A stretch of DNA of 64,000 nucleotides from Gordonia sp. KTR9 (GTDB taxonomy: Bacteria; Actinomycetota; Actinomycetes; Mycobacteriales; Mycobacteriaceae). The position numbers and the translations under genes are program-made. Numbering within the stretch: position 1 is the first letter of the stretch; every line of letters begins with the position of its first letter. The notes below the pieces were generated by a model. The model ran no database searches and was not told the DNA's origin. It saw only the letters and a program-made list of their open reading frames with translations. The DNA lies in assembly GCF_000143885.2 (NCBI RefSeq), contig NC_018581.1, positions 5,332,001-5,396,000 of the forward strand. Direction: 5' to 3'. Below, one piece after another: positions 10,643-24,497 of the stretch.

Positions 10643-11290
10643 TCAGACGGCCGAGTCCGGGAATGCGATCACCGACAGGAAACGCACCGGCAGCTCGACG
10701 AGTTCGACAGGCCCGTGCGCTCCCTCGCCGTCGAGCTGAAGCGAGTCGCCCGGATGCATCCGGTACACCGAGCGGCTGTGGGCGTAGTCCATCACGCCCT
10801 CGAGGACGTACAGGAATTCGGTTCCCGCGTGCTGGAACAGCGGCTGGGTGACCGACTTCTCGGTCAGCGTGACGAGTAGGCACTCGAGCCGTTTGTGCTC
10901 ACCGCGCAACGAACCGAGCAGCTCGTACTCGTGGCCCTCCCGAGACCCCTCGCGGATGATCTCCGAGCCCTCACCCGATTTGACGAACACGGCCGACCGT
11001 TCCATCTCGGCGCCGCGGAACAGCGAGGTCACCGACACGTCGAACCCGTTGGCCAGGCGGGCCAGCGTACTGAGACTGCACGAGGTCTGGGCGTTCTCGA
11101 TCTTCGACAACATCGCCTTGGAGATGCCGACGCGAGTCGCCATGTCCCCCACCGACAGTCCCTGCTGGCGTCGCAGACGCCGCACGTTGTGCGCGATCGC
11201 CGTCTCCAGCTCCAGCTCCTCGACCGACTGGTCGACGGGCCGCTCTCGCGCTGTGCCGGATTGATTCCGGATCAAAGGGTCGTCCGTCAC
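10643..11290 (-). CDS. XRE-family regulator with C-terminal cupin
   Basis: A 215-residue protein with an N-terminal Cro/C1-type HTH (about 32-90: IAHNVRRLRRQQGLSVGDMA then SKAMLSKIENAQTSCSLSTL) and a C-terminal cupin (about 140-208: HAGTEFLYVLEGVMDY). This two-domain type usually senses a small metabolite and controls adjacent amine or amino-acid catabolism. It lies directly downstream of the FAD oxidoreductase of the amine module and is read in the same direction. GTG 11290 is 6 nt after TATGCT, so the transcript is probably leaderless. A GAAAC-N3-GTTTC palindrome between -35 and -10 suggests autoregulation. Confidence 0.85.
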   Translation of the reverse strand: MTDDPLIRNQSGTARERPVDQSVEELELETAIAHNVRRLRRQQGLSVGDMATRVGISKAMLSKIENAQTSCSLSTLARLANGFDVSVTSLFRGAEMERSAVFVKSGEGSEIIREGSREGHEYELLGSLRGEHKRLECLLVTLTEKSVTQPLFQHAGTEFLYVLEGVMDYAHSRSVYRMHPGDSLQLDGEGAHGPVELVELPVRFLSVIAFPDSAV

Positions 11291-11296
11291 GCTGCC

Positions 11297-11335
11297 AGCA
11301 TAGTGAGAAACAACGTTTCCTGACAGTTGACACAC
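11297..11335 (-). promoter_or_regulatory. Promoter and operator of the XRE-cupin gene
   Basis: On the minus strand a CTGTCA-type -35 and a TATGCT -10 (11302-11297) flank the palindrome GAAACAACGTTTC (plus-strand 11307-11319). The -10 lies 6 nt from the GTG start. Confidence 0.5.
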
Positions 11336-11384
11336 GAAGTCGGCTCCCGTCGACGGTCGGGCATCAGGTCATCGGAAGGCCGGG

Positions 11385-12575
11385 TCAGCGCATCTCGCCG
11401 GCTCCGACATACGGGAAGCGTGTCGTCAGCAGGTCTCCCTCGGCGAACCGAGAGAAACGGAAGTCCGACTCGGGGATACGAGGGTCCGCGCTGCGCCCGT
11501 CGACGACCAGATCGGCGATCAACCGGCCGACCGCCGGTGAGATCTTGAACCCGTGCCCACTGAATCCGGCTGCGAGCACGAGCCCGTCCAGCGGTCCACG
11601 GGAGATGATCGGGTTCCAGTCCGGCGTGACGTCGTAACACCCGGCATAGCTCGTGGTGATCGCCGGCGCGGAGAAACCGGGGAATCGCGTGCCGACCTTG
11701 TCGACCGTGAGGTCGATGAAGTCCGAATCCGCGCGATTGCGGTAGTCGTCCGGATCCGCGATGTCGAGGGCGGCCAGATCGCTGTTGCCGAACAAGATCT
11801 CACCGCGGACGTCGGGACGGACGTACTGCAGTGACACCAGGTCCGAGAAGACCGGCACCTCGCCGAGGTCCTCACCCGGGTCGATCATCACGATCTGTTC
11901 GCGATGCACCTCGATCGGGACGTCGATCCCGTAGGGGGCGAGGAACGGCCTGGACCAGACGCCGGTCGCGACCACGACGGTGTCCGCGGAGATCGTCGAG
12001 CCGTCGGCGAGGCGGACGCCGGTCACCCTGTCCTTGTCGACGACGAGGCCGGTCACCTTCGTGCCCTGACGGATTCGGATTCCCGTCGCCCGTGCGGAGG
12101 CCGCGAAGGCCTGCGCGGTCTGATACGCGTCGCCGTACCCGCCCCGTTCCTCCCATCCGAAGGCCGCGAACGGTTCGAGGTCGGCGGTCGGCCACATCGC
12201 GGCGACGTCGGCGACGTCGATCTCCTCGGTCTGCACACCCATCACGCGTTGTGCCGCGAGGCTCTTGCGCATGTTCTCGACATTCGCCTCCCCCACGCCC
12301 ACCACGTACCCGGTCTGCCGGAAACCGATGTCCGTTCCGAAGATCTCCTCGGCCTTCTCGAAGACCTCGAGCCCGATCGCGGCCATGGCTGCCAGTGAGC
12401 CGACACCGTAGTGGCAGCGGACGATTCCCGACGACTTCCCCGTCATCCCACCGCCGACGGTGTCGCGCTCACAGACGATCACATCGGTGACGCCGCGCTG
12501 TCCCAACGCCCACGCGGCGGCCGCGCCCTCGAGACCCCCGCCGACGATGACGACCGACGCGGACTCCGGGTTCAC
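11385..12575 (-). CDS. FAD-dependent oxidoreductase (DAO, sarcosine-oxidase-beta-like)
   Basis: A 396-residue flavoprotein of the D-amino-acid/sarcosine oxidase superfamily. It has the N-terminal dinucleotide fold VVIVGGGLEGAAAAWALGQRG, a substrate-domain middle, and the late PIISRGPLDGLVLAAGFSGHGFK region typical of the family. Members oxidise N-methyl or secondary amines; the context suggests N-methylglutamate or a related N-alkyl amino acid as substrate, which is inference. Its GTG start overlaps the stop of the FMN glutamate-synthase-like gene (GTGA at 12572-12575), so it is the last gene of the glnT-glx operon. Confidence 0.85.
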   Translation of the reverse strand: MNPESASVVIVGGGLEGAAAAWALGQRGVTDVIVCERDTVGGGMTGKSSGIVRCHYGVGSLAAMAAIGLEVFEKAEEIFGTDIGFRQTGYVVGVGEANVENMRKSLAAQRVMGVQTEEIDVADVAAMWPTADLEPFAAFGWEERGGYGDAYQTAQAFAASARATGIRIRQGTKVTGLVVDKDRVTGVRLADGSTISADTVVVATGVWSRPFLAPYGIDVPIEVHREQIVMIDPGEDLGEVPVFSDLVSLQYVRPDVRGEILFGNSDLAALDIADPDDYRNRADSDFIDLTVDKVGTRFPGFSAPAITTSYAGCYDVTPDWNPIISRGPLDGLVLAAGFSGHGFKISPAVGRLIADLVVDGRSADPRIPESDFRFSRFAEGDLLTTRFPYVGAGEMR

Positions 12576-13903
12576 AGCCCGGACCCCGGAATCCAGTTCG
12601 TCCCGGCGAGCGGGACGCGGGCCATCGCCGACGCCTCGATCGAGATCGCCACGAGGTCTTCGGGTTCCAGATGCTGCAGATGTGCCTTCCCGCACGCACG
12701 CGCGATTGTCTGGGCCTCCATCGTCATCACGCGCAGGAAGTTCGCGAGTCGCTTTCCGCCGAGGACCGGGTCGAAGCGGGCGGACAGTTCCGGGTCCTGC
12801 GTGCTGATGCCTGCGGGATCGCGCCCGTCCTGGAAGTCGTCGTAGAAGCCGGCGGCCGAGCCCAACGCCTCGTATTCTTCGGCGTATCGGGGGTCGTTGT
12901 CACCCAACGCGATCAGCGCGGCGGTTCCGATGGCGACGGCGTCGGCGCCCAGCGCCATCGCCTTCGCGACATCTGCTCCGTTGCGGATCCCACCCGAGAC
13001 GATCAGCTGCACCTCTCGATGAACTCCCAACTCCTGCAGGGCCTGCACTGCCTGAGGGATCGCGGCGAGGGTCGGGATGCCCACGTGTTCGATGAAAACG
13101 TCCTGGGTGGCGGCCGTTCCGCCCTGCATGCCGTCGACCACGACGACGTCGGCGCCGGAGTGCACCGCGAGCTTGACGTCGTAGTAGGTGCGGGTGGCGC
13201 CGACCTTCACGTAGATCGGCTTCTCCCAGTCGGTGATCTCGCGCAACTCGTTGATCTTGATCGCGAGGTCGTCGGGCCCGGTCCAATCCGGATGACGGCA
13301 CGCGCTGCGCTGGTCGATACCCTGCGGCAGGGTACGCATCCCGGCGACCCGTTCGGAGATCTTCTGTCCCAGCAGCATTCCCCCTCCGCCGGGTTTGGCG
13401 CCCTGCCCCAGAACGATCTCGATCGCGTCGGCCTTACGCAGGTCGTCGGGGTTCATCCCGTACCGCGACGGGAGATACTGGTAGACAAGATGCTTCGACT
13501 GCCCCCGCTCTTCGGGCGTCATCCCGCCGTCACCGGTGGTCGTGGAGGTGCCGACCTCCGAGGCGCCGCGACCGAGTGCTTCCTTAGCCGAGGCCGACAA
13601 TGCACCGAAGCTCATCCCGGCGATCGTCACCGGGGTGGCGAGATGCAACGGGTACTTCGCATTTCGGCTACCGAGGACGACGTCGGTGTCGCAGCGCTCG
13701 CGGTAACCCTCCAGTGGATAGCGGGACATCGACGCGCCGAGGAACAGCAGATCGTCGAAATGCGGCAGCTTGCGCTTGGCGCCCCAGCCGCGGATGTCGT
13801 AGATGCCGGTCTCGGCGGCGCGCTGGATCGCGGCGATGGTCGTGCGGTCGAATGTGGCCGACTCGCGCAGGCCACGCTGTTCGATGCTCAGGTTGTCGGT
13901 CAT
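12572..13903 (-). CDS. glxD: FMN-binding glutamate synthase-like subunit (GlxD/MgsC type)
   Basis: A 443-residue protein of the Glu_synthase FMN/FeS domain family. Landmarks are PVTIAGMSFGALSASAKEAL, GEGGM-equivalent TGDGGMTPEER, GQGAKPGGGG, KVGATRTYYDV and VVVDGMQGGT. In N-methylglutamate synthase (MgsABC) and in rhizobial GlxBCD, this subunit carries out the synthase half-reaction with ammonia or methylamine from the amidotransferase subunit. The large GltB protein is split here into three genes. It is followed by the FAD oxidoreductase with a 4-bp overlap and preceded by a 231-bp gap containing tandem repeats, unlike the other tight junctions of this operon. Confidence 0.85.
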   Translation of the reverse strand: MTDNLSIEQRGLRESATFDRTTIAAIQRAAETGIYDIRGWGAKRKLPHFDDLLFLGASMSRYPLEGYRERCDTDVVLGSRNAKYPLHLATPVTIAGMSFGALSASAKEALGRGASEVGTSTTTGDGGMTPEERGQSKHLVYQYLPSRYGMNPDDLRKADAIEIVLGQGAKPGGGGMLLGQKISERVAGMRTLPQGIDQRSACRHPDWTGPDDLAIKINELREITDWEKPIYVKVGATRTYYDVKLAVHSGADVVVVDGMQGGTAATQDVFIEHVGIPTLAAIPQAVQALQELGVHREVQLIVSGGIRNGADVAKAMALGADAVAIGTAALIALGDNDPRYAEEYEALGSAAGFYDDFQDGRDPAGISTQDPELSARFDPVLGGKRLANFLRVMTMEAQTIARACGKAHLQHLEPEDLVAISIEASAMARVPLAGTNWIPGSGL

Positions 13904-13952
13904 GACGGTTCTCTTTCGTCGTGTGGTGGGCGACGGTGGGGCCCTTCGAGGC

Positions 13953-14130
13953 TCGTCGCTATCGCTCCTCGCACCTCAGGGAGCAGTGGGTCGGCGCGCT
14001 TACGCTTCTCGCACCTCAGGGAGCAGTGGGTCGGCGCGCTTGCGCTCCTCGCACCTCAGGGAGCAGTGGGTCGGCGCGCTTGCGCTCCTCGCATCTCAGG
14101 GAACGGGATGGTCGCACCTCAGGGAGCAGT
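13953..14130. repeat. 40-bp tandem repeats inside the glx operon
   Basis: The core CTCGCACCTCAGGGAGCAG recurs with a 40-bp period: GCACCTCAGG begins at 13971, 14011 and 14051, a diverged copy (GCATCTCAGG) at 14091, and a partial copy at 14113. Units run on with TGGGTCGGCGCGCTTGCGCTC. Each contains a short inverted repeat (GCTCC...GGAGC). The leading segment CCCTTCGAGGCTCGTCGCT (from about 13942) looks like part of the same family. It lies between glxC and glxD. Confidence 0.8.
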
Positions 14131-14134
14131 TGGC

Positions 14135-14884
14135 TCAGTACGCGGACGTGTTGTCGACCTTGAAGTGGTACAGCTCGCGGGCCGATCCGTAGCGGGTGTA
14201 GTCGCGGGGGTCGTCATCGCCGAAACCGGCGGCCTTGAGCAGTCCGGTCAGCTCCTCGAGGTGTTCGGCGCGCATGGGCTTGGCGATGCAGTCGGCACCG
14301 AGCGAGGCGACATCGCCGCGCACATAGATGCGGGTCTCGTAGATCGAGTCGCCGAGCCCGTCACCCGCGTTTCCGCGGACGACCAGACGGCCGGCCTGTG
14401 CCATGAAAGCGCTGTTGTGCCCGACGTTTCCACCGACGACGATGTCGACGCCCTTCATCGAGATGCCGCACCGTGCCGCGGCGTCGCCCTCGACGACGAG
14501 GAACCCGCCGTGCGCGGTGGCGCCCGCCGACTGGGAGGCGTTGCCCTTCACGATGACGCTGCCGCTCATCATGTTCTCGGCGACACCGGTACCGGCGTTG
14601 CCGTTGATCGTGACCTCGGCCTGCTGGTTCATCCCGGCCGCGTAGTAGCCGACGTGGCCGTTGATGGTGATCTTCAGCGGGAGGTTGACCCCGGCCGCGA
14701 CGCTGTGGGCGCCGGCCGGGTTCTCGATGACGACCTCTCCCGAGATGTCGCCGTGCAACGCCGAATTGATCTCGCGCAGCGGGGTGCCGGCGAGGTCGAA
14801 GGTGTGGTTGGGGCTCATCGTCTCAGCTTTCGCCGTGTCGGTGGAGGCGGGAACGGTAGGGGTGGTTGCCAACTCGGCGGTCAT
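14135..14884 (-). CDS. glxC: GXGXG-domain glutamate synthase-like subunit (GlxC/MgsB type)
   Basis: A 249-residue beta-helix protein matching the C-terminal GXGXG domain of glutamate synthase. Repeating Gly motifs are visible: GDISGEVVIENPAGAHS, GYYAAGMNQQAEVTINGNAG, GFLVVEGDAAARCGISMKG, GGNVGHNSAF and GNAGDGLGDS. In split GltB enzymes this is a structural subunit. Its ATG at 14884 overlaps the stop of glxB (ATGA), so translation is coupled; an in-frame ATG three codons earlier is possible. Downstream is the 40-bp repeat array and then glxD. Confidence 0.87.
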   Translation of the reverse strand: MTAELATTPTVPASTDTAKAETMSPNHTFDLAGTPLREINSALHGDISGEVVIENPAGAHSVAAGVNLPLKITINGHVGYYAAGMNQQAEVTINGNAGTGVAENMMSGSVIVKGNASQSAGATAHGGFLVVEGDAAARCGISMKGVDIVVGGNVGHNSAFMAQAGRLVVRGNAGDGLGDSIYETRIYVRGDVASLGADCIAKPMRAEHLEELTGLLKAAGFGDDDPRDYTRYGSARELYHFKVDNTSAY

Positions 14885-15777
14885 CGCGTCCATGCGTACA
14901 CGACCTCCGGCTCGGGCTCCCAGATGCGGGCGTTCTCCACGCCGGGCAGTGTGGTCAGCGCGCGGTACTCACTCGCCATGGCCACCCAGTCGTCGGTCTC
15001 GGCGATCACCGCCGGTTTGCACGCGATGGCGTCGCGGACCACGGCGAACGAGTCGCGGTTGGACACCAGCAGGGTGTAGAAGCCGTCGAAGTTGGCGCAC
15101 ACCTCTTTCAGAGCTGTCTCCACGTCCTTACCCGCCGCCAGCTGGTGCGCGACGAACCGCGCGCCCACCTCGGTGTCGTTCTCGCTGTCGAATTCCACTC
15201 CCGCGGCGCGGAGTTCGCGTCTGATCGTGGCGTGGTTGGCGAACGAGCCGTTGTGGACCAGGCACTGCTCGGGACCGACTGCGAACGGGTGCGCGCCCGA
15301 GGAGGTGACGGCTGATTCCGTCGCCATCCTGGTGTGGCCGACCCCCTGCCACCCCGACGCTGCTGCGAGTCCCCAGGATCGGGTCAGTTCCCGTGGCGCT
15401 CCGACGCCCTTGAGGACGGTGAGGTCCGACCCGAAGCCCGCGACGAGTGCGTGGGGATATGCGGCGCGTGCGGCGGCGAGCAGTTCGTCGGCCGTCACCG
15501 GGGCGGAGATCACGAGCGTGACGTCTGTCGCCTGCGCCGCGACCGCCACCCCGAGCGCCGCGCTCAGAGTCGCGGACACCTCCTCGGGGATCACGTCGAG
15601 TTCGAGGAGGGAGATGCAGCCGTGCCCCGGCGGCGCCCACGCGGGGTTTCCGTAGACGGCGATACCCGCCGAATCCGCGCCGCGGTCCTGCATCTCGCCG
15701 AGCATCTCGGCGAGCAACTCGCCGAGCCGGGGGTGGAGGTCCGGGTTGCGCAGATGCAGCCCGACGATTCCGCACAT
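14881..15777 (-). CDS. glxB: Class II glutamine amidotransferase (GlxB/MgsA type)
   Basis: A 298-residue Ntn-hydrolase glutamine amidotransferase. MCGIVGLH places the nucleophile Cys at residue 2 after Met removal, and further landmarks are DRGADSAGIAVYG, GVGHTRMATES and VHNGSFANHATIRREL. By homology it hydrolyses glutamine (or gamma-glutamylmethylamide) to deliver ammonia (or methylamine) to the FMN subunit. It starts 66 bp after the glnT stop and overlaps glxC by 4 bp. Confidence 0.88.
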   Translation of the reverse strand: MCGIVGLHLRNPDLHPRLGELLAEMLGEMQDRGADSAGIAVYGNPAWAPPGHGCISLLELDVIPEEVSATLSAALGVAVAAQATDVTLVISAPVTADELLAAARAAYPHALVAGFGSDLTVLKGVGAPRELTRSWGLAAASGWQGVGHTRMATESAVTSSGAHPFAVGPEQCLVHNGSFANHATIRRELRAAGVEFDSENDTEVGARFVAHQLAAGKDVETALKEVCANFDGFYTLLVSNRDSFAVVRDAIACKPAVIAETDDWVAMASEYRALTTLPGVENARIWEPEPEVVYAWTR

Positions 15778-15843
15778 GGTCAGGTCCTTACGTCGAGAGG
15801 TGGATGTTGCTGTCGGAGAAACGCTTCGCTCAGGGATCGACGG

Positions 15844-17202
15844 TCAGAACGCCGTCAGGTACTTGTCGACCTCCCACGGCGTGACCGCCGCGTGCCAGTC
15901 GAAGAACTCGTCGCGCTTGAGTCCGGCGAAGTACGCCGAGACCCGCTGCTGATCGTCCGGCCAGTCCTCCGGGAGTGCGGCGTCGAGCGCGCCGGCGACC
16001 ACCGTGTCGGTCTCGAGCGCCTCCACCGCGTGCAGCAGGGTGAGCGGGAGTTCGGCGATGTGGCCGGGACAGTTCCCGACGGCACCGGGATCGAGACTCC
16101 GCTTGATGCCGTCGAGTCCCGCTCCCAGGAGGGCGGCGACGGCCAGGTACGGATTCGCCGAACCGTCGCCACCGCGCAGTTCCACGCGTTGCTCGTCGGG
16201 CACCCGGATGTAATGCGTGCGGTCGTTGCCGCCGTAGGTGGCCCGCCGCGGAGCCCAGGACGCCCCCGAGCGGGTCGCGGTCGCCCCGGTTCGCTTGTAC
16301 GAGTTGACCGTCGGTGCGATGACGGCCTGGAGCGCGGGCGCGTGCTCCAGGATTCCGCCGATGAATCCGTAGGCCGTCTCCGACAGCCCCAGGCCGCGTT
16401 CGTCGTCGGTGACCTCGGGGAACACCGGGTCACCCGCCCGCGTCAGCGACAGGTGGAAGTGCAATCCCGATCCGGTGCGCTCGGCGAAGGGCTTCGGCAT
16501 GAAGGTCGCGATCATGCCCCGCTCCGCGGCCAGGGCCGAGAGCAGGTAGCGGAGCGTGACGACGCGGTCGGCGGTCGTCAGAGCGTCGGAGTAGGCGAAG
16601 TTCTGCTCGAACTGACCGTTGCCGTCTTCGTGGTCGTTGGCGTAGTTGCTCCAGCCGAGCTGGTTCATCGCGGTGGACACGGTGGTCAGGTGCTCGTACA
16701 TGCGGGTCAGCCCGCGGACGTCGTAGCACGGCTGATCCGAGTCGTCGGCGGCGTCGGCGGTCACCAACGACCCGTCGGCAGCCCGCTTGAGGAGGAAGTA
16801 CTCGACCTCCGCGCCGACCCACGGCTCGAAGCCTGCGTCCGCGGTCTGCGCGATGAGGGCCTTGAGGATGTTGCGGGGCGCGAAGGGCCAGGGCTTGCCC
16901 TCGACATGCGGATCGCACTGGACGACGGCGAGGCCCTCTTTGATGAACGGGATGGGCAGGAAGGAACGGACGTCGGGGATGGCGATGAGGTCGGGGTCCT
17001 TCGGCTCCTGCCCGATGGCACCGACGGCGTATCCGGCGAAACCGACTCCATCGGTGGCCAATTCGTCCACGGCCTCCACCGGCACCAGCTTGGCGCAGGG
17101 TTTGCCGCGGAGATCGACGAACATCGCGAGGATGAACTTGGTGCCGTGCGTCGCGCAGAGATCGGCGAGGTCGCCGGTCGTCGTCTCGGTGGTTGTCATC
17201 AT
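15844..17202 (-). CDS. glnT: Glutamine synthetase-like, GlnT / gamma-glutamylmethylamide synthetase type
   Basis: A 452-residue glutamine synthetase-superfamily enzyme. It has the beta-grasp N-terminus (LRGKPCAKLVPVEAV) and catalytic motifs EVEYFLLKR, NDHEDGNGQFEQNF, GSGLHFHLSL, APTVNSYKR and RVELRGGDGSANPYLAVAAL. The gene neighbours (glxB, glxC, glxD) match glnT-type clusters and the methylotroph gmaS-mgsABC cluster, where the enzyme ligates methylamine or another amine to glutamate. Either true glutamine synthesis or amine ligation is possible. GGAGCAC before the double ATG is a weak ribosome site. It is the first gene of the operon, under a GlnR-type box. Confidence 0.87.
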   Translation of the reverse strand: MMTTTETTTGDLADLCATHGTKFILAMFVDLRGKPCAKLVPVEAVDELATDGVGFAGYAVGAIGQEPKDPDLIAIPDVRSFLPIPFIKEGLAVVQCDPHVEGKPWPFAPRNILKALIAQTADAGFEPWVGAEVEYFLLKRAADGSLVTADAADDSDQPCYDVRGLTRMYEHLTTVSTAMNQLGWSNYANDHEDGNGQFEQNFAYSDALTTADRVVTLRYLLSALAAERGMIATFMPKPFAERTGSGLHFHLSLTRAGDPVFPEVTDDERGLGLSETAYGFIGGILEHAPALQAVIAPTVNSYKRTGATATRSGASWAPRRATYGGNDRTHYIRVPDEQRVELRGGDGSANPYLAVAALLGAGLDGIKRSLDPGAVGNCPGHIAELPLTLLHAVEALETDTVVAGALDAALPEDWPDDQQRVSAYFAGLKRDEFFDWHAAVTPWEVDKYLTAF

Positions 17203-17261
17203 GTGCTCCGGGGGTCGACTCTAGGGGCTTTCGGTCCGCGTGTCCACTCTTGTGAACCTTT

Positions 17262-17278
17262 GTCTATTATTAGTAGAC
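17262..17278. promoter_or_regulatory. 17-bp inverted repeat in the glnT promoter region
   Basis: GTCTATTATTAGTAGAC consists of perfect GTCTA/TAGAC arms around 7 AT-rich bases. On the minus strand this AT-rich stretch is also the best -10 candidate for glnT, so a bound repressor would block the promoter. The XRE-cupin protein is a possible ligand, by inference. Confidence 0.45.
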
Positions 17279-17287
17279 CTACTGGTT

Positions 17288-17325
17288 GTTTCGACCCTGT
17301 TTCGGCTCCGTGAGCGGTACGTGTC
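17288..17325 (-). promoter_or_regulatory. GlnR-type operator upstream of glnT
   Basis: Read on the minus strand: GACAC-N6-CTCAC-N6-GAAAC-N6-GAAAC, four half-sites at exact 11-bp steps. GlnR of Streptomyces and Mycobacterium binds GnnAC/GAAAC half-sites with 6-bp spacers. It lies 86-123 bp upstream of the glnT start, the place for an activator. Confidence 0.6.
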
Positions 17326-17362
17326 GGTTTGTCCGACAACGATGTCCGCGCGGGAGCAACGC

Positions 17363-17407
17363 AGACGGCTCGGGGGCCCACCGTCGAACGGTGGACCCCC
17401 GAGCCGT
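17363..17407 (-). terminator. Terminator after amt
   Basis: Arms 17363-17383 and 17387-17407 form a 20-bp stem with one C/A mismatch and a CGA loop, starting 17 bp past the amt stop. It separates the demethylase-amt operon from the glnT promoter. There is no U-tract. Confidence 0.75.
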
Positions 17408-17423
17408 CGTGTGCAGGCGTCGA

Positions 17424-18794
17424 TCAGACCCCGGCCGGTGGTGCCGAGGCCGGCGAGGACGCCGGCATCGCCTCCTCCACCCGTTCTGCCGCTCGAGCCG
17501 GTGACATCGTCGAGAGTCCGCCGGCGTGTCCGACAGAAGCGCTGGGGATCTCGTAGGCGGTCTCGGCGTGCAGTACGGCGTCGAGACCGGTCATCTCGGT
17601 CTCCTCGTCGACGCGCAGGCCCATCAGCTTGTCCAGTCCCTTGGCGATCAGCCAGGTCATCACGAACGAGTAGGTGCAGGTGATGACGATGCCGGCGAGT
17701 TCGCGCCAGACGATGTCGACGGGCCCGCCGAACAGGATTCCCTGGACACCGGCCGGCGCCGCCTCGGTGGCGAACAGCACGATGCAGAGGGTTCCGACGA
17801 TGCCGCCGACACCGTGCACGGCGAAGGCGTCCAGCGTCTCGTCGATCTTGAGCCTGTTCTTGAAGCTCAGCAGGAATGCGACGACCGCGGCGGCGAAGAT
17901 GCCGACGAGGAGCGCACCGAGCGGTGCCATGCTGCTGGCCGCGGGGGTGATGCCGACGAGGCCGGCGATGGTGCCGGTGATCATGCCGAGCGAGGTGACG
18001 TGCCCCTCACGCCACTTCTCGATGATCGCGAAGCCGATCATGCCCGCCGAGCCGGCCAGCAGCGTGTTCAGGATGACGGCCTGCGCCAGGAAGTTAGCGC
18101 CGAGCGCACAGCTGCCGTTGAACCCGAACCAGCCGAAGAACAGGATGCCGCCGCCCATGATGGTCATCGGCACGTTGTGTGGACGTTCCATCCGTCGCTT
18201 GCGGGCACCGAGCACCACCGCCAGCGCGAGTGCTGCGACACCGGCGTTCATGTGGACCGCGGTTCCGCCCGCGTAGTCGACGATCTCGAGGTCGTTGAGC
18301 AGGAAGCCGCCGCTGTAGTTGTCGTCGACGTCGGCCGCGAAGACCCAGTGCGCCACCGGGAAGTACACCACCAGAAGCCAGATCGGAGCGAAGACGAGCC
18401 AGGACGAGAACTTCATCCGGCCGGCCGCGCCGCTGGCCACGATCGCGATCGTGATGGCCGCGAACAGGATGAACCAGGCTGCGAAGTACAGGGTCTGGGT
18501 GGCGCCGGAGGCGTCGTCGGTGAGCCAGTTGGTCAGTCCGATGTAGTCGGTCGGGTTGCCGATGATGCCCCACCCGCCTACCGACGGACCGGACACCAGC
18601 CCGTGTCCGATCACGACGTAGAGAACCGCCGTGATCGCCAGGGTGGACATGACCATCGTCATGATGTTGAGGACGTTCTTCGATCCGACCATGCCACCGT
18701 AGAAGAAGGCCAGGCCGGGGAACATCAGCAGGACGAAGACGAAGGCCGCCAGCATCCATGCCAGGTCGGCATTGGCGGCGAGTATGGGTTCCAT
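17424..18794 (-). CDS. amt: Ammonium transporter (Amt/MEP family)
   Basis: A 456-residue membrane protein with 11 expected helices. Family landmarks include FFYGGMVGSKNVLNIMTMV, GGTAVHMNAGVAALALAVVLG, GWFGFNGSCALGAN and DAFAVHGVGGIVGT, which hold the conserved pore His residues. It imports ammonium and possibly methylammonium. It begins 65 bp after the second N-demethylase gene, so it is probably the last gene of the cupin-demethylase operon, and it ends at a strong terminator. The C-terminal tail is polar and slightly long. Confidence 0.9.
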   Translation of the reverse strand: MEPILAANADLAWMLAAFVFVLLMFPGLAFFYGGMVGSKNVLNIMTMVMSTLAITAVLYVVIGHGLVSGPSVGGWGIIGNPTDYIGLTNWLTDDASGATQTLYFAAWFILFAAITIAIVASGAAGRMKFSSWLVFAPIWLLVVYFPVAHWVFAADVDDNYSGGFLLNDLEIVDYAGGTAVHMNAGVAALALAVVLGARKRRMERPHNVPMTIMGGGILFFGWFGFNGSCALGANFLAQAVILNTLLAGSAGMIGFAIIEKWREGHVTSLGMITGTIAGLVGITPAASSMAPLGALLVGIFAAAVVAFLLSFKNRLKIDETLDAFAVHGVGGIVGTLCIVLFATEAAPAGVQGILFGGPVDIVWRELAGIVITCTYSFVMTWLIAKGLDKLMGLRVDEETEMTGLDAVLHAETAYEIPSASVGHAGGLSTMSPARAAERVEEAMPASSPASAPPAGV

Positions 18795-18859
18795 GAGCGA
18801 TCTTTCGGTTCAGGGACTCTACGAGAAGTCGAGGTGTTCGGGACCTGAGCTCACGGGCA

Positions 18860-19861
18860 TCATTGACCGCGTAGATATGCGACGACGCTGTCGCGGTAGT
18901 CGAGGAATCCCTTGTAGGCGGCGATGTCCTCGCCGAGCGTCTCGATGACGGTCGCCAGCTGACCGGCCCACTCGGGTATTCGCTTCACGTCCTCGAGTGA
19001 GGCCATGAATGTCCGAATATTGAACGTCACCGCACCCGACATCGGCAACCGGACGAAGTGTTCGAGCTCGATTCGCAGTCGTGCGCGGGCGAAATCGCCG
19101 TCGGCGACCATGCCCGGGACGTCGGCTGCCCACTCCGGCAGTTCCTCGAGGCTGACGTCGAGCTTGTGCGAGTCCGACGCCGACAGCGTCCAGTTCACCC
19201 GGCGATACACCTGATCGGCGGGTAGCCTGCGCAGGAACTGCTCGGCGCGGGCGACGATGCCTTCGCGGAGCATGCGGGGAACGGGCGCGTGGATCTGGTA
19301 CATGTCCATGCCGACGTCGAACGACACCGACCAGGCGGCGGCGAACGTGACCACGCCTGCATCGAAGTACAGGTGTCCGTCGCGTTCGGTGACGAGGAGC
19401 AGGTCGTCGGGTACCTCCCGCGCCAGGAACTCCATCGGTCCGCACGGGAGAGTGGCCGCGTCGCCGAGGACGAACTCCTGGTCTGTGCCGAGAAGCCGGT
19501 TGCGCCAATGCAATCGGCCGTCGCCGTGCTCGGTCAAGGTCATATCGTCGGGATAGGCGTGGCCGAGATCGCGGAGGTAGTACAGCAGCAGGTCCCAGCA
19601 CGCGAGTTCCATACCGGGGAGCACCCGCACCCGTGTCGGATCGGCGTCGAGGATGCGACGCCGCTCGGCCATGATCTCCAGATACTCCGCACCGCCCAGA
19701 TCGACCAGGTGCCTGCCCCATTCGCCCGCACGCGTCGCGTGGGGGATGCGCGCCGGTTCGACGTTCACGCTGTAGGAGAACTCTTCCAGGTCGTCCGGGA
19801 AGGGCCAGGGCAGGTTCGCCAGGTGATCCACCTTCCGGGTCGGAAACGAATCGATGCTCAC
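18860..19861 (-). CDS. Heme-dependent oxidative N-demethylase-like subunit (DUF3445), second copy
   Basis: A 333-residue DUF3445 protein, the family of the heme PAS-fold subunit of dimethylamine N-demethylase (HODM). It starts SIDSFPTRKVDHLANLPWPF and has ARIPHATRAGEWGRHLVDLGG, FDAGVVTFAAAWSVSFDVGM, IHAPVPRMLREGIVARAEQF and YRRVNWTLSAS, stretches also found in the other DUF3445 protein of this operon. Its GTG start overlaps the stop of reductase 2 (GTGA, 19858-19861). It lacks the C-terminal Cys domain present in the paralogue. Expected reaction: oxidative removal of an N-methyl group as formaldehyde; the substrate is inferred. Confidence 0.85.
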   Translation of the reverse strand: MSIDSFPTRKVDHLANLPWPFPDDLEEFSYSVNVEPARIPHATRAGEWGRHLVDLGGAEYLEIMAERRRILDADPTRVRVLPGMELACWDLLLYYLRDLGHAYPDDMTLTEHGDGRLHWRNRLLGTDQEFVLGDAATLPCGPMEFLAREVPDDLLLVTERDGHLYFDAGVVTFAAAWSVSFDVGMDMYQIHAPVPRMLREGIVARAEQFLRRLPADQVYRRVNWTLSASDSHKLDVSLEELPEWAADVPGMVADGDFARARLRIELEHFVRLPMSGAVTFNIRTFMASLEDVKRIPEWAGQLATVIETLGEDIAAYKGFLDYRDSVVAYLRGQ

Positions 19862-20856
19862 AGGTCCACCTCGATGTCCTGGCCGCGCGACACACAGCAC
19901 AACAAGGCGTCGCCCATGGCCTTCTCGTCGTCGGTCAATACGAAGTCGCGGTGCTCGATCCGGCCGCGTCGGACGGGGATTCGGCATTCGCCGCACACGC
20001 CCTGACGGCACCGGTTGGGCACCGGGACCCCGTTGTCGAGCAGCCGCTGCAACAGTGACACACCCGCGGGTACGTCGACACGGGCACCGGAGGACGCGAC
20101 GGTCACCGTGAACGGATCGCCGGGGTCCTGTTCCGGCGCCGTGAAGCGCTCGAGATGGACCCGCGCGCTCGGCCACCCGGCGGCCTCCGCGAGCTGTGTG
20201 TAGGTCTCGAGCAGCGACGTGGGACCGCAGGCGTAGGCGTGCGTGCCGAGCGGCTGGGCACGCAACCGGTCGGCGATGACCTCCACGGTGGCCGCGGCAC
20301 CGGACACCTCGTGCAGGGTCACGGTGGGTTGCGCCGCGAGTGCACGCAGGTCGTCGATGTGCGCACCGCACCCCCGACGATAGGAGTACACGATGTCCGC
20401 CCGACGTCCGTCGCGAGCGAGCGCACGGGCGTGGGACAACACCGGGGTCACCCCTATCCCGCCCGCCACCAGCAGCGCACCGTGCTGGTCGAGGACCGGC
20501 GGGAACATCGAACGCGGGCCCTCGATCTCGACGACGGCGTCCTCGACGAGGTTGTCGTGCAACCAGTCCGAGCCGCCGCCGGCACCGCGTCGCATCACCG
20601 AGATGCCGTAGCTCGTCGGGTACATCCCGTCGTCGACGAGCGAGTACGCATTCCGCTGCCCGCCGGCGGACACGATCAGATGACTGCCCGGCTGGTATGA
20701 GGTGAGGTACGGCGCCGCGTCGTCGGCCGGCCCGAACCGGAAGTGTGTCACCTCGTCGGTGAGCCGTCGTACCGCGAGGACCCGCATCGGTCGCGGACCC
20801 GTCACATAGGCGGGATGGAGGTGGGCCGGGTACTCCCCCACGACGACCGCGGTCAT
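19858..20856 (-). CDS. PDR/VanB-type oxidoreductase (flavin, NAD, 2Fe-2S), second copy
   Basis: A 332-residue one-component reductase in the order flavin-binding, NAD-binding (GGIGVTPVLS) and C-terminal plant-type 2Fe-2S ferredoxin domain (CRQGVCGEC, Cys283/288/291 and 321). The flavin domain carries RNAYSLVDDG. This matches the reductase of dimethylamine monooxygenase and phthalate-dioxygenase-type systems. It would pass electrons from NAD(P)H to the adjacent heme demethylase. ATG 20856 overlaps the preceding stop (ATGA) and its stop overlaps the next start (GTGA), so it is tightly coupled to both DUF3445 genes. Confidence 0.88.
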   Translation of the reverse strand: MTAVVVGEYPAHLHPAYVTGPRPMRVLAVRRLTDEVTHFRFGPADDAAPYLTSYQPGSHLIVSAGGQRNAYSLVDDGMYPTSYGISVMRRGAGGGSDWLHDNLVEDAVVEIEGPRSMFPPVLDQHGALLVAGGIGVTPVLSHARALARDGRRADIVYSYRRGCGAHIDDLRALAAQPTVTLHEVSGAAATVEVIADRLRAQPLGTHAYACGPTSLLETYTQLAEAAGWPSARVHLERFTAPEQDPGDPFTVTVASSGARVDVPAGVSLLQRLLDNGVPVPNRCRQGVCGECRIPVRRGRIEHRDFVLTDDEKAMGDALLCCVSRGQDIEVDL

Positions 20857-22385
20857 GCGTCGTCTCCCACGGCGGAACCGAGGAAGCCACCGATCACGGG
20901 CGAATGATGTTCGTGCACCTCGAGATCCCGAGCACAACCGGGACACGCGACGGTACCGCCGACGACCGCGTCGACACGGAAGGTGTCACGACAGTGCGCG
21001 CAGTAGAGCGGCAGGTCGCGCGTGTGGGTGACGTACGACGACAACTCCGCCGCCACCGCGCCGGCGGCACGCGCCATCGCCAGCGCGGTCAGCACCTCGT
21101 ACTGCCCACCGGTCACCAGGATCCGGGTGCCGGTGCGGCACTCGTCCAGGGCCGAGCGCAGGGCGGAACGGTCGTGCGACCCGACGAGCGTGTCCAGGAC
21201 CAGCAACCGCGTCTGGCCGGCCGCCTCGGCCGCTCCGACCCAGTTCCGGGACACGTGCGCGACTTCGGCGTCGTCCCCGATCGCCACGATGAGAAAGGCC
21301 GAGCCGGTGGTGTCGACGGCCGGCGGCGAGGCGGGCCAGCGTGGCATGCCGGGTCCGGGTGTCGCGGTCGGCGCGGGTGCGGCGGCACGAAGCCACTGTG
21401 CCGCACGATCGCGGAACTTGATGATGCCCTTGTAATCGGCCATGTCGCCGGGCAATTCGGCCAGCACCTCGGCGGATCGTCGACGCCACGCCTCGACGGT
21501 CGCGAGTTGTTCGAGCGATAGCATGTAGGTCCGGATCAGGAACATCACCGCACCCGAATCGGGGAGCCGGATGAGATGTTGCACCTCGACGCGGAGATGC
21601 ACTCGCCTGCCGAACTCGTCGTCGGGCACCTGCTGGATCGTCTCCCGGTCGGGTCCCCACTCGTGATAGATCTCGGTCGAGACGTCGAGTCGGCGGTCGA
21701 TCGTCAGGGTCCAGTTGGTCCGTCGGTAGGGCTCATGGGGTTGGAGACGTTTGAGGAATTCGTGCGCGCGCGTGATGACGCCCTCCTGGCGTACGCGCGG
21801 CACCGGCCCGTGGATCTCGAGAAAGCTCATCCCGACGTCGAATCCGAAGCTCCAGTCGGCGGCGAAGGTGACGACCCCGGCGTCGACGAAGAGCTGATCG
21901 TTGCGCTGGTCGAGGAGTGCGATGTCCTCCTGGACCTGAGAGGTGATGTACCGCAACGGCTCCTCGGGGAGAGTCGCGGGGTCGCCGTAGCGGAAGTGCT
22001 GCTCGATCCCCAGGATGTCGTTGCACCACGACCAGGTGTCGGCTCCGGTCGACCGGAGCCGCATCTGGTCGGGGTAGGTCGCGTCGAGCTCGCGCATCAT
22101 GGTCAACATCGCATCCCACGCGGCCGGGACCATGTGCGGCAACACCGCGTGACGGGTCGGATCGGTGGCGAGGATCATCGCACGCCGGTCGAGCTCGGCG
22201 CGGTACTCCGAATCGACGTCGACGACTGCAGCACCCCACCGGCCCGCGGCGGTGGTCACCGGCACCTGGGCCGGCTCGACGTTCGTGCTGTACCGATAGC
22301 GGTCTTCGGGGAACGGGAACGGGAAACCGGCGACGAGGTCCGGCATCGTGCCGGCTCCGGTCGGCGGGTCGAACAGGGTCGTCAC
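20853..22385 (-). CDS. DUF3445 N-demethylase subunit fused to a DmmA-like Cys domain
   Basis: A 510-residue fusion. Residues 1 to about 340 are a DUF3445 heme N-demethylase subunit (PFPFPEDRYRYSTNVEPAQV; FVDAGVVTFAADWSFGFDVG). A Pro/Ala linker follows, then a domain (about 365-510) that parallels the neighbouring DmmA-like protein and ends with two CxxC pairs (Cys462/465 and 481/484: CAHC and CPGC). The Cys pairs suggest a metal or Fe-S site. GTG 22385 overlaps the stop of reductase 1 (GTGA). Fusion of two subunits that are separate in the same operon supports their physical association. Confidence 0.85.
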   Translation of the reverse strand: MTTLFDPPTGAGTMPDLVAGFPFPFPEDRYRYSTNVEPAQVPVTTAAGRWGAAVVDVDSEYRAELDRRAMILATDPTRHAVLPHMVPAAWDAMLTMMRELDATYPDQMRLRSTGADTWSWCNDILGIEQHFRYGDPATLPEEPLRYITSQVQEDIALLDQRNDQLFVDAGVVTFAADWSFGFDVGMSFLEIHGPVPRVRQEGVITRAHEFLKRLQPHEPYRRTNWTLTIDRRLDVSTEIYHEWGPDRETIQQVPDDEFGRRVHLRVEVQHLIRLPDSGAVMFLIRTYMLSLEQLATVEAWRRRSAEVLAELPGDMADYKGIIKFRDRAAQWLRAAAPAPTATPGPGMPRWPASPPAVDTTGSAFLIVAIGDDAEVAHVSRNWVGAAEAAGQTRLLVLDTLVGSHDRSALRSALDECRTGTRILVTGGQYEVLTALAMARAAGAVAAELSSYVTHTRDLPLYCAHCRDTFRVDAVVGGTVACPGCARDLEVHEHHSPVIGGFLGSAVGDDA

Positions 22386-23383
22386 AGCGGAACCTCCAGT
22401 GTGGTTGCGGCGGCCGCGCGTGAGACGCACGGCATGATGGCGTTGCCCGCGTCCTTCTCCTCGGTGCTCAGGTAGAGGTCACGGTGGATCGGGGCGCCAC
22501 CGACAACGGGTATGCGGCACTGCCCGCACACCCCCTGCCGGCAGAGGTTCGGCACGGCGACGCCGTCGCTCTCGAGGGCATCCAGCATGCTGGTCCCCGA
22601 CGGCACGTCGACCGTTCGGCCCGAGGCCGTCAGCGCCACGCGGAACGGGTCGCCGTCGTCGAGGGCGCCGACACCGAACCGCTCGAAATGCACTCGCGAC
22701 CCGGGCCAGCCGGCATCCGTGGCGGCGGCGACCACCGCATCGATCATCGCGGACGGTCCGCAGACGTACAGGTGCGTCCCGATCGGTTGCCGCCGAAGTG
22801 CGTGTGACAGGCGGTCGGTGAAAGAGACACGGTCGGTGAACAATTCGGCACGCGACCCGGCGAGTGCGGTGACCTCGTCGAGATGCGCCGCCGCCGACTC
22901 GCGAAAGACGTAGAGAAGCTGGACATCACGATGCCAACGGGCCGCCGCGCGGAGGTGTGACACCATCGGCGTGATCCCGATCCCACCGGCGATCAGGAGG
23001 TGTTTGCGCGCCCGGGCGATCGGTGCGAACGCGCTGCGCGGCAGCCCCACCGGCACGACCGCGCCGACGTCGAGTTCGTCGTGAAGCCACCGTGATCCAC
23101 CGTTCCCGTCGTGGAGGCGGAGCACCGAGATCGAGTACTCCGACGGATGTGTGCCGTCGCCGGTGAGGCTGTAGGCGTTGGTGGCGGCGCCCGCGTGCAC
23201 GACCAGGTGGCTGCCCGGGACGTAGCCGGGCAGCGGCCGTCCGCCCGGGTCGGCGAAGGTGATCGTGCGGATGTCTCGCGACGGCGCGCTGACGGCGGTC
23301 ACGACGAGGTCCATCGTCGTCGCGGCGGATGCCCGGCGCGGGACGGACTCGGTCATGCTCATCTCGGCGACTCCGGTGTTCAT
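22382..23383 (-). CDS. PDR/VanB-type oxidoreductase (flavin, NAD, 2Fe-2S), first copy
   Basis: A 333-residue reductase with flavin domain (TNAYSLTGDG), NAD domain (GGIGITPMVSHLR) and C-terminal 2Fe-2S domain with Cys281, 286, 289 (CRQGVCGQC) and 319. It is a clear paralogue of the reductase at 19858-20856. In dimethylamine monooxygenase this protein type supplies electrons to the heme subunit. ATG 23383 overlaps the DmmA-like stop (ATGA); its stop overlaps the fusion gene start (GTGA). Confidence 0.88.
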   Translation of the reverse strand: MNTGVAEMSMTESVPRRASAATTMDLVVTAVSAPSRDIRTITFADPGGRPLPGYVPGSHLVVHAGAATNAYSLTGDGTHPSEYSISVLRLHDGNGGSRWLHDELDVGAVVPVGLPRSAFAPIARARKHLLIAGGIGITPMVSHLRAAARWHRDVQLLYVFRESAAAHLDEVTALAGSRAELFTDRVSFTDRLSHALRRQPIGTHLYVCGPSAMIDAVVAAATDAGWPGSRVHFERFGVGALDDGDPFRVALTASGRTVDVPSGTSMLDALESDGVAVPNLCRQGVCGQCRIPVVGGAPIHRDLYLSTEEKDAGNAIMPCVSRAAAATTLEVPL

Positions 23384-23949
23384 GAGACGGGTTCCTCGAC
23401 TGATTCGGTGTCCGGACAGGCCGGCTGGGCGGTCTCGGCGTCGACCATGAACCCCAGATAATGTCCGGTTCGGCGCGAGACGTGGTGGTACACGAGCAGG
23501 TCACGCCGGCATCCGGCGCACGGGACGACGTCGTCGACAGACGCGGTCGCGCGGGTGACCGATCGGCAGTGCGCGCAGAAGACCTCCACGACGACCTCCG
23601 GCGCAGAAGTCACCGGTACGACCGAGATCTCGTCGTCCTCGAGTCCGGCGCCGAGCGCGACCGCCCGCAGGGTCAGCGCCGATCCCGCATCCGCGGTTAT
23701 CCACACCCGCACGCCGACAACGGCTTCGGCCAAGGTGCCGGCGAGCTGGGCAGCAGCGGAGTCGGCGTCGGCGTGGATACGCGTGGTGGCACGCGGAGGC
23801 AGCGCTGATTCCCAGCGTGCGAGGGTCTCGACGACGTCCCCGACACCGACCAGCACGTAGGAGCTGCCGGTCGGCGCGGGCGTCGTTTCCTCGCTCGGAT
23901 CACCGGGGCGTGCCCATGTCGGCACGCTGGAGAAGGCGATCTGCGACAT
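23380..23949 (-). CDS. DmmA-like dimethylamine monooxygenase subunit
   Basis: A 189-residue protein with an alpha/beta N-terminal part and a C-terminal Cys module: CAHC (Cys125/128) and CAGC (Cys144/147), then RRDLLVYHHVSRRTGHYLGF. The same module ends the DUF3445 fusion protein two genes downstream. It corresponds to the small subunit annotated DmmA in dimethylamine monooxygenase systems; its role (electron transfer or assembly) is not established here. It starts 9 nt after the cupin stop and overlaps the reductase by 4 bp. Nothing else in the sequence gives a substrate. Confidence 0.72.
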   Translation of the reverse strand: MSQIAFSSVPTWARPGDPSEETTPAPTGSSYVLVGVGDVVETLARWESALPPRATTRIHADADSAAAQLAGTLAEAVVGVRVWITADAGSALTLRAVALGAGLEDDEISVVPVTSAPEVVVEVFCAHCRSVTRATASVDDVVPCAGCRRDLLVYHHVSRRTGHYLGFMVDAETAQPACPDTESVEEPVS

Positions 23950-23958
23950 GGCCGCGGC

Positions 23959-24342
23959 TCAGAGGAGCGTGGCGTCGCGCAGCCCGGTGTAGAAGGCGAG
24001 CGCGTAGTCGGGGGTGCTGAAGTAGATCTTCGAGCCCTTCGGGAAGAAGATCGCGTCCTTGGCCTTGGCCACCGTCTTCTGCCCGGTCTCCTTGTTCTCG
24101 AGGAGGAACTCGCCTTCGAGGACCACCTTCATCTCGTCGTACTCGTATTCGTAGTACAGCGGTTCGTCGGTGTGGCGCAGCTCGAAATAGCCGCTGCACA
24201 TGGGACTTCCGTCCGGGTTCTCGTAGACGTCGCCGATGAAGCCCTGGGTGCCCGGGTACTCGGCCTCGGGCATCTTGGGCAGATCCTCATATCCGCCGCT
24301 CGTCACGCGGAACTCCAACGCCTTGGCACTCTCGATGGTCAC
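23959..24342 (-). CDS. Cupin protein (EutQ-like)
   Basis: A 127-residue single-domain cupin with the motif region YYEYEYDEMKVVLEGEF and a later DAIFFPKGSKIYFSTPDYAL. It resembles EutQ-like cupins found with ethanolamine and methylated-amine genes. It is the first gene of the N-demethylase operon, 9 nt before the DmmA-like gene, so a role in the same pathway is likely, for example handling formaldehyde or an amine adduct; this is inference. A TGGAGGAGCAAC ribosome site lies just before the ATG at 24342. Confidence 0.78.
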   Translation of the reverse strand: MTIESAKALEFRVTSGGYEDLPKMPEAEYPGTQGFIGDVYENPDGSPMCSGYFELRHTDEPLYYEYEYDEMKVVLEGEFLLENKETGQKTVAKAKDAIFFPKGSKIYFSTPDYALAFYTGLRDATLL

Positions 24343-24456
24343 GTTGCTCCTCCATATGTTTCACGGGGCGTACTCGCGGAAGGTGATACGTCGATGACGT
24401 CGCCGTACCACCCGCGACGCGGTCGACTCCCCTCAGTGGACTTTGTCCCCTGTTAT

Positions 24457-24475
24457 GAAACAAGCGTCGTGTTTC
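24457..24475. promoter_or_regulatory. 19-bp inverted repeat before the cupin-demethylase operon
   Basis: GAAACAAGCGTCGTGTTTC has perfect 6-bp arms (GAAACA/TGTTTC) around 7 bp. The half-site GAAAC also forms the palindrome in the XRE-cupin promoter, so this may be its second target. It overlaps one half-site of the GlnR-type box. Confidence 0.4.
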
Positions 24476-24497
24476 GGAAGTGTGACGACTCTGTAAT
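24471..24497 (-). promoter_or_regulatory. GlnR-type box before the cupin-demethylase operon
   Basis: On the minus strand: ATTAC-N6-GTCAC-N6-GAAAC. The last two half-sites fit the GTnAC-N6-GAAAC form of the GlnR consensus exactly. It lies 129-155 bp upstream of the cupin start. Confidence 0.55.

Follow-up and report, generated by a model that had tools for sequence, protein, structure and literature searches.

A predicted methylated-amine gene cluster of Gordonia sp. KTR9 with two tandem DmmABC-type enzymes and a candidate single-subunit N-methylglutamate oxidase or dehydrogenase

In this study, we report the analysis of a cluster of 13 genes on the minus strand of the Gordonia sp. KTR9 genome, which is predicted to encode two complete haem N-demethylases in tandem, together with a gamma-glutamylmethylamide synthetase (GMAS), the three MgsABC subunits and a flavoprotein of the DAO family. 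The window analysed is a stretch of 64,000 nucleotides (bases 5332001-5396000 of one contig, NC_018581.1) from a genome of 5.9 Mb that is rated 100% complete, and the cluster runs from position 24342 down to position 10643 of the window. The order of transcription is eutQ-like, dmmA1, dmmB1, a dmmC1~dmmA2 fusion, dmmB2, dmmC2, amt, glnT/gmaS, mgsA, mgsB, mgsC, DAO and XRE-cupin (Table 1). Profile searches using Pfam and NCBIfam confirmed the named families, all 13 genes being found where the original prediction, made from the sequence alone, had placed them on the minus strand within 13.7 kb, and none of the 13 contains an internal stop. Overlaps of 4 bp, which had been claimed for nearly all junctions, were found at five of the 12 (A1/B1, B1/C1, A2/B2, B2/C2 and MgsC/DAO), counted with GTG at 22385 as the start of the C1-A2 gene; the other seven junctions are one overlap of 13 bp and six gaps of 9, 65, 221, 66, 231 and 49 bp. 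The synteny recurs in Gordonia and in other actinobacteria, and the gene arrangement is therefore not due to chance. The locus comparison also placed the EutQ-like gene close to dmm genes in many relatives.

Table 1. Genes and GlnR-like boxes of the cluster (positions in the window)
Feature	Position	Strand	Profile match or motif
EutQ-like small cupin, first gene	23959..24342	-	PF06249 50.9 bits
DmmA1, DmmA-family subunit of demethylase 1	23380..23949	-	NF041259 111.5 bits (cut-off 60)
DmmB1, flavin/2Fe-2S (PDR-type) reductase of demethylase 1	22382..23383	-	Fer2, NAD_binding_1, DmmA-like_N
DmmC1, haem N-demethylase alpha subunit, in-frame fusion to DmmA2	20853..22385	-	PF11927 226.3 bits (cut-off 25); NF041259 100.1 bits (cut-off 60)
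DmmB2, reductase of demethylase 2	19858..20856	-	Fer2, NAD_binding_1, DmmA-like_N
DmmC2, divergent haem N-demethylase alpha subunit	18860..19861	-	PF11927 198.7 bits (cut-off 25)
Amt, ammonium/methylammonium transporter	17424..18794	-	PF00909 357.9 bits
GMAS/GlnT, gamma-glutamylmethylamide synthetase type	15844..17202	-	Type III glutamate-ammonia ligase TIGR03105 597.6 bits (cut-off 469.6)
MgsA, GATase subunit	14881..15777	-	PF13522/PF13537
MgsB, GXGXG subunit	14135..14893	-	PF01493 41.2 bits
MgsC, glutamate-synthase-like FMN subunit	12572..13903	-	PF01645 304 bits
DAO, single-subunit FAD amine oxidoreductase; proposed N-methylglutamate oxidase/dehydrogenase	11385..12575	-	PF01266 214 bits
XRE-cupin regulator, PuuR-like	10643..11335	-	HTH_3 + Cupin_2; best NCBIfam match PuuR 48 bits (under cut-off 211)
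GlnR-like box upstream of eutQ	24470..24486	-	GnnACn6GnAACA match
GlnR-like box upstream of glnT	17287..17303	-	GnnACn6GnAACA match; overlapping second core 17298-17311

Two DmmABC-type trios in tandem

The dmmABC genes are established (PMC5520151), and the A, B and C domains of the DmmABC/HODM system (PDB 5lte; Ruegeria dmmDABC, PMC5520151) are the same as those of the Gordonia cluster, which differs in having two tandem trios, a C1-A2 fusion and a divergent C2. Unlike in Ruegeria dmmDABC, no DmmD (GcvT) gene was found in the Gordonia cluster. Genes of the dmm type have also been described in Nesterenkonia (PMC8875376), and in Aminobacter (PMC9800807) and Ruegeria (PMC13390433), the latter two with mgdABCD. 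In the parts of the open-licence literature searched, neither tandem DmmABC nor the replacement of MgdABCD by one enzyme came up, nor, in the part searched for it, a DmmC paralogue.

The source genome encodes two haem N-demethylase domains, both of them in this cluster, and both C1 and C2 match the solved haem N-demethylase 5lte_A (E 8.9e-98 and 1.3e-68, respectively). Set 1 (A1B1C1) consists of an adjacent alpha subunit, PDR-type reductase and DmmA subunit, the composition of DmmABC/HODM, and a second DmmA domain was located at the C-terminus of the first demethylase (residues 424-521). Related loci were collected by a contig scan, which gave 154 stretches encoding a relative; the best 80 were used, ranked by likeness to C1, so that loci having C2 alone could have escaped. 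C2 is present in 36 of the 80 loci and was not found in 44, nine of which are shorter than 20 kb and possibly cut. Among the 36 two-set loci, the order A1B1C1A2B2C2 was found in 27 (20 Gordonia and 7 others) and the order A2B2C2A1B1C1 in eight (Nocardioides, Millisia and a Pimelobacter bin), where A2 is free, while the remaining one is cut by its contig. A2 is present in 35 and B2 in all 36 of these loci, completing the set-2 trio (A2B2C2). C1 and A2 share one stop-free frame in 19 of the 20 Gordonia loci with the first order and in 0/7 non-Gordonia loci with the same order. Taken across the two-set loci, these gene orders indicate that A2 goes with B2 and C2, and that the fusion follows from gene order.

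Trees were built from subsampled rows (56 of 119 for C, 56 of 115 for B and 56 of 107 for A). The set-2 rows formed a single clade for each subunit, with SH-aLRT values of 97 (A), 100 (B) and 100 (C), the A and B trees having long outgroup branches and the A tree carrying a warning of possible false joining of set-2 and outgroup branches. The stem of the C2 clade has a length of 1.48 changes per column, and the C tree allows an origin of C2 either inside C1 or beside it. Two DUF3445 proteins had originally been taken for subunits of one enzyme; with the second DmmA domain and the trio trees in hand, the cluster is instead predicted to encode two DmmABC-type enzymes, each complete, arranged one after the other as A1 B1 C1~A2 B2 C2. 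The arrangement of C1 and C2 as two subunits of a single enzyme was rejected because each has its own A and B, in co-duplicated trios.

A protein search with C2 found 431 proteins at E 1e-30, and the best 120 of the 431, all at least 65% identical, include proteins of Gordonia, Nocardioides, Aeromicrobium, Mycobacterium shigaense, M. smegmatis MKD8, Rhodococcus globerulus, Raineyella and Pseudarthrobacter. Orthologues of C2 (at least 84%) were found in a phylum-wide sample of 396 genomes only in the two sampled Gordonia with HODM, and C2 is thus rare.

Three large-genome actinobacteria of the same order (L018, L019 and L023) have an HODM alpha gene 56-58% identical to C1, and no other cluster gene was found in their stretches of 19-20 kb. 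On a plasmid of Candidatus Mycobacterium methanotrophicum (L125:12191-16690), eutQ-dmmAB, an unlisted dmmC and an APC permease gene lie among transposase genes.

Substrates of the two demethylases

The residues H99, Q165, Q167, F203, H207 and Q284 are identical in all 81 C1 rows and in two proteobacterial DmmC sequences, the only two such rows compared. Five of these positions are changed in all 36 C2 rows (H99G, Q165E, Q167P, F203M and Q284E), and the changes D73G, Q175E and D192A are near-fixed. His207 is kept in every HODM row compared, and His285 is kept in C1 and C2 and absent from the two proteobacterial DmmC rows. Since C2 is altered at residues that are fixed in C1, it is not classed as a dimethylamine monooxygenase; C2 appears to be constrained, but for a different site than C1. 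C1, by contrast, is similar to the known dimethylamine monooxygenase, and the most likely reaction of set 1 is the demethylation of dimethylamine to methylamine.

One tentative reading, to which we give rather less than an even chance, is that set 2 acts on another N-methylated amine, for instance N-methylethanolamine or some other substituted secondary or tertiary amine, and that GMAS receives the methylamine so formed or a different primary amine. The long separation of the C2 clade, with its own reductase and DmmA and its altered conserved residues, would fit such an enzyme, as would the EutQ-like cupin within the cluster and the ability of the Rhodovulum GMAS, as described in PMC7948447, to take ethylamine and propylamine as well. 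The loci gave no positive evidence for any particular amine, however, and no neighbour gene cluster (at least five loci) confined to two-set loci across genera was found.

Alternatively, set 2 could be a direct trimethylamine oxidative N-demethylase that forms dimethylamine and replaces Tmm and Tdm, so that the two enzymes would work in series; this we consider somewhat unlikely. Tdm matches among the 80 loci occur only in the one-set Streptomyces loci L109, L112 and L114, and Tmm matches only in these three and in the one-set Nesterenkonia loci L092 and L093 (in pieces in L093); neither Tmm nor Tdm was found in the flanks (up to 10 kb) of any two-set locus. The three Streptomyces loci carry Tmm, Tdm, one DmmABC, GMAS, MgsABC and DAO together, that is, the textbook trimethylamine route ending in DAO. 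Genome-wide, with one-set or two-set status assigned at the dmm locus only, 15 of the 34 one-set genomes outside Gordonia encode Tmm, compared with 1 of the 15 two-set ones (Fisher p 0.018) and with none of the 31 two-set Gordonia genomes. This survey covered 49 non-Gordonia genomes, drawn from 50 of the 59 loci of this kind, those of L075, L082, L084, L085, L088, L089, L104, L111, L119 and L124 standing outside it. The changes of C2 at H99, Q165, Q167, F203 and Q284, fixed with respect to both C1 and the two proteobacterial DmmC, and at the near-fixed Q175 and D192, would also fit this reading.

The raw anticorrelation of set 2 and Tmm was dropped, as it failed correction for kinship: in five independent pairs, Tmm changed in the same direction as set 2 in 1.0, in the opposite direction in 0.3 and not at all in 3.7 (means), which gives no support and leans, if anything, against the trimethylamine reading. 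Moreover, locus L071 carries both set 2 and Tmm, two one-set Gordonia are also without Tmm, and the 11 of 59 Gordonia genomes that have Tmm (in two pieces in G052) all lack GMAS and HODM. No C2 residue is linked to any substrate, and no trimethylamine HODM was met in the open-licence literature searched. Tmm was itself rejected as the entry enzyme of the source genome: at E 1e-30 the best FMO of that genome (at 4.37 Mb) has no match among Tmm structures, whereas the Rhizobium Tmm does, and a search with the latter finds nothing there at E 1e-60. The extended form of the proposal is unlikely in our view: A2B2C2 would be a hitherto undescribed direct haem-PAS oxidative N-demethylase of trimethylamine, a tertiary amine, and one cluster would carry out three oxidative N-demethylations (two haem, one flavin) on the way from trimethylamine to glutamate, without trimethylamine N-oxide and with N-methylglutamate opened by a single-subunit FAD enzyme.

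GMAS, MgsABC and the DAO flavoprotein

GMAS and MgsABC are shared with the proteobacterial GmaS-MgsABC-MgdABCD pathway, and Gordonia has Amt beside them; it differs in having one FAD enzyme for the four-subunit dehydrogenase and in the absence of folD and purU from its 13 genes. In Rhizobium (L126) and on a P. aeruginosa plasmid (L127), glnT and mgsABC lie beside dmmABC. The latter locus (P. aeruginosa RW109 plasmid 1, 3431-14159) comprises puuR and a glnT-mgsABC-amt-dmmABC-gcvT cluster on a large plasmid. In one one-set Gordonia locus (L016:14476-16044), a GH1 glucosidase-like ORF is found between amt and glnT. Among actinobacteria, a Gma-MgsABC cluster with EutQ has been described in two Mycobacterium strains (sp. 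141/155; PMC5023230), and thus GMAS-MgsABC and EutQ occur there as in Gordonia. The section of that report on these strains gives no dimethylamine monooxygenase candidate besides Tmo, proposes a ferredoxin/flavodoxin-type gene as Tmd and assigns Mgd to distant genes; HODM and DAO, both present in the Gordonia cluster, are not named in it. The cluster departs from the textbook pathway in its pair of complete, adjacent haem demethylases and in its one flavin enzyme, for which other bacteria have a four-part enzyme.

The closest solved relatives of the window GMAS are RhGmaS (7cql) and glutamate-methylamine ligase (9qur). Residues K30, A48, Y147, Y174, D177, E179, E186, N188, W300 and R312, as given in PMC7948447, are kept in the window and in 43/43 actinobacterial rows, and Y191 in the window and 42/43. 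These include Trp300, the catalytic D177, E186 and R312, and Ala48 in place of the ammonia-binding Asp of glutamine synthetase, a pattern characteristic of GmaS. In the window and all 43 rows, however, position 175, the methylamine-pocket Gln of RhGmaS, is Ala, and position 189 is Phe for Trp189; these two residues could alter the amine pocket of the actinobacterial GMAS. Apart from Gln175, other residues of the methylamine pocket are kept. Three separate glutamate-synthase-like subunits lie next to GMAS, as expected for MgsABC.

It is improbable, in our estimate, that GlnT-MgsABC-DAO works on a different primary amine, or on ammonia when nitrogen is limiting, and that its link to the demethylases is one of shared regulation only. 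The changes Q175A and W189F would be compatible with this, as would Gordonia G026, which has GMAS and DAO without HODM, and a report that M. smegmatis does not grow on methylamine and shows GlnR-dependent growth on ethanolamine (PMC4222082). Against it, HODM is present in 33 of the 34 GMAS-bearing Gordonia genomes and in none of the 25 others, GMAS has Trp300 and has replaced the ammonia-binding Asp by Ala48, and the Rhizobium and P. aeruginosa dmm clusters share the same glnT-mgsABC neighbours.

Co-occurrence was examined in 59 Gordonia genomes. GMAS is present in 34 of them, and the genomes with DAO are precisely the same ones, the other 25 having neither; the raw Fisher value overstates this evidence, because the rows of one genus are related and not independent. 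DAO occurs as type 1 in 25 of the 34 and as type 2 in nine (52-54% identity), with both together in none. On the GMAS tree the DAO type switches about five times, at least four of these being forced by supported branches, although this is a quick tree with long outgroup branches and a long G033 branch, and transfer of glnT would blur the count. The repeated type changes are a stronger argument than the raw co-occurrence. Type-1 DAO starts 4.2 to 4.8 kb from the glnT start on the same contig in 24 of 25 genomes, the genes of G049 being split between contigs. All three type-2 loci that lie off the GMAS contig have a HutD-like and an M20-amidohydrolase-like gene beside DAO.

DAO is present in 36 of the 42 loci with mgsC. 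Of the six others, L070 and L100 end within 0.7 kb of mgsC, the Gordonia loci L059 and L063 carry DAO on another contig, and two are from Nesterenkonia. In Nesterenkonia L092 the gene right after mgsC is a different DAO; its nearest families are N-methyltryptophan oxidase and monomeric sarcosine oxidase, whose cut-offs it does not reach, and a similar DAO gene lies about 2 kb from mgsC in L093.

The DAO domain is common to the Gordonia enzyme and the family of sarcosine oxidase beta and monomeric sarcosine oxidase, from which the Gordonia DAO differs in lacking adjacent oxidase subunits and the covalent-FMN His, and in its proposed substrate, N-methylglutamate. At the position of this residue, Ala is found in 39 and Gly in one of 40 DAO rows (window included), and His in the source genome's own SoxB and in a Rhizobium SoxB; the aligned His we take to be the covalent-FMN His of the heterotetrameric sarcosine oxidase beta subunit. 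The best solved match of DAO is 1y56_B (E 1.4e-39). The simplest reading is that DAO acts as a stand-alone FAD N-methylglutamate oxidase or dehydrogenase; neither oxidase name was met in the open-licence literature searched.

That N-methylglutamate is instead oxidised by an MgdABCD/SoxBDAG-type enzyme encoded elsewhere, with another task for DAO, appears very unlikely. Distant MgdABCD homologues have been assigned in Mycobacterium, as noted above (PMC5023230), and SoxD and SoxA-like genes at about 1.35 Mb of the source genome could act in trans. The SoxD locus, however, adjoins a PDR-type reductase and an 818-aa DAO plus GCV_T protein, and is read as serving betaine/dimethylglycine breakdown. 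The four subunits of MgdABCD, including a SoxD-like one, were not found within the cluster. SoxD (the MgdABCD subunit type) was found in 13 of 34 GMAS-bearing and 3 of 25 other Gordonia genomes; because it was not found in the remaining 21 of the 34, these probably also lack the usual MgdABCD, and DAO tracks GMAS exactly.

Next to type-2 DAO at L207:9922-12987, L208:7763-10866, L209:6662-9685 and L053:17400-20413, there is a HutD-like gene and an M20 gene of the allantoate-amidohydrolase-like kind. An M20 relative also follows mgsC in Rhodococcus/Nocardia-type loci (L108, L117, L118 and L120 to L123).

Nitrogen control and the proposed route

Of 55 loci, 13 have a match to the GlnR consensus GnnACn6GnAACA (PMC3662644) upstream of eutQ, and 14 of 44 have one upstream of glnT, compared with 33 of 4000 random stretches of the same loci. 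Elsewhere such matches precede amt in 3/37 and XRE-cupin in 1/33, and none was found upstream of DmmA (0/33), the reductases (0/80 and 0/36), C1 (0/80), C2 (0/36), MgsA (0/44), MgsB (0/42), MgsC (0/42) or DAO (0/39). The cluster may comprise two transcription units, because the boxes precede eutQ and glnT. In M. smegmatis, the genes msmeg_6259 (amt1) to msmeg_6264, in the order amt1-glnT-GATase-FwdC-glutamate-synthase-oxidoreductase, have been described as GlnR-dependent (PMC4222082), and an increase under nitrogen limitation has been described for some of them (PMC4617892). Methylotrophy by the ribulose monophosphate (RuMP) pathway was rejected: the RuMP hexulose-phosphate synthase (HPS) was found above the cut-off of 200 in 0/59 Gordonia genomes, with weak matches in 57 of them (best 28.7 bits), and carbon assimilation by this pathway is unlikely for that reason. 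The earlier view that the amines serve as a nitrogen and not a carbon source agrees with the GlnR-like boxes and the absence of HPS above the cut-off, although the lack of formaldehyde genes in the 64 kb window, on which it had drawn, is weak evidence alone.

The anatomy of the cluster, the two co-duplicated trios, their conservation and co-occurrence, the residue conservation and the GlnR-like boxes are direct observations. The chemistry of DmmABC, GMAS and MgsABC is taken from knowledge of their families. On this basis we propose, with a probability of roughly 0.75, that the cluster serves as a module for scavenging nitrogen from methylated amines. The two haem (PAS-type) oxidative N-demethylases A1B1C1 and A2B2C2 would remove methyl groups as formaldehyde, set 1 converting dimethylamine to methylamine and set 2 acting on a different N-methylated amine, and methylamine would probably also enter via Amt. 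GMAS would join methylamine to glutamate, giving gamma-glutamylmethylamide, which MgsABC would rearrange to N-methylglutamate, and DAO would oxidise the latter to glutamate and formaldehyde, replacing the four-subunit N-methylglutamate dehydrogenase MgdABCD. Expression would answer to nitrogen limitation (GlnR), and probably also to the local XRE-cupin regulator. We infer the substrates of DAO and of set 2, what the regulators sense and the fate of the formaldehyde.

Several points weigh against this proposal. The main contrary result, reported in PMC4222082, is the failure of M. smegmatis to use methylamine as a nitrogen source for growth. In addition, GMAS has Ala for the pocket Gln at position 175, the co-occurrence counts come from a single genus, and SoxD and SoxA-like genes lie elsewhere in the source genome. 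Type-2 DAO stands in a HutD-M20-DAO block, off the GMAS contig in 3/9 genomes, and its main job could differ. The GlnR-like boxes in the window alone are unremarkable (3 found, 1.16 expected). The dimethylamine-GMAS-MgsABC-FAD route of the original prediction thus gains comparative support from the distribution of GMAS and DAO (34/34 vs 0/25), the 21/34 genomes in which SoxD was not found and the GMAS residues, while the growth result in M. smegmatis speaks against it.

Should DAO prove to be the N-methylglutamate enzyme, the capacity of actinobacteria to use methylamine could be read from genomes without MgdABCD, and the pathway would be simpler to engineer. The altered second haem N-demethylase with its own partners would offer a natural pair for learning how a rare PAS-type enzyme chooses its amine. 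The cluster would likewise provide a testable methylated-amine nitrogen route in soil actinobacteria, for which no gene dedicated to dimethylamine is given in the relevant section of an earlier genome study (PMC5023230).

A second motif, of the type ACAAG-TCC, was found upstream of eutQ in 6 of 54 loci, glnT in 12 of 45, amt in 10 of 36 and mgsA in 0 of 44, with at most 0.6 expected in each case. In the window, GACAAAG followed by TCCAC or TTCAC is present in both upstream regions, those of eutQ (24436-24447) and glnT (17252-17264). The motif is only a hint of a candidate XRE-cupin operator.

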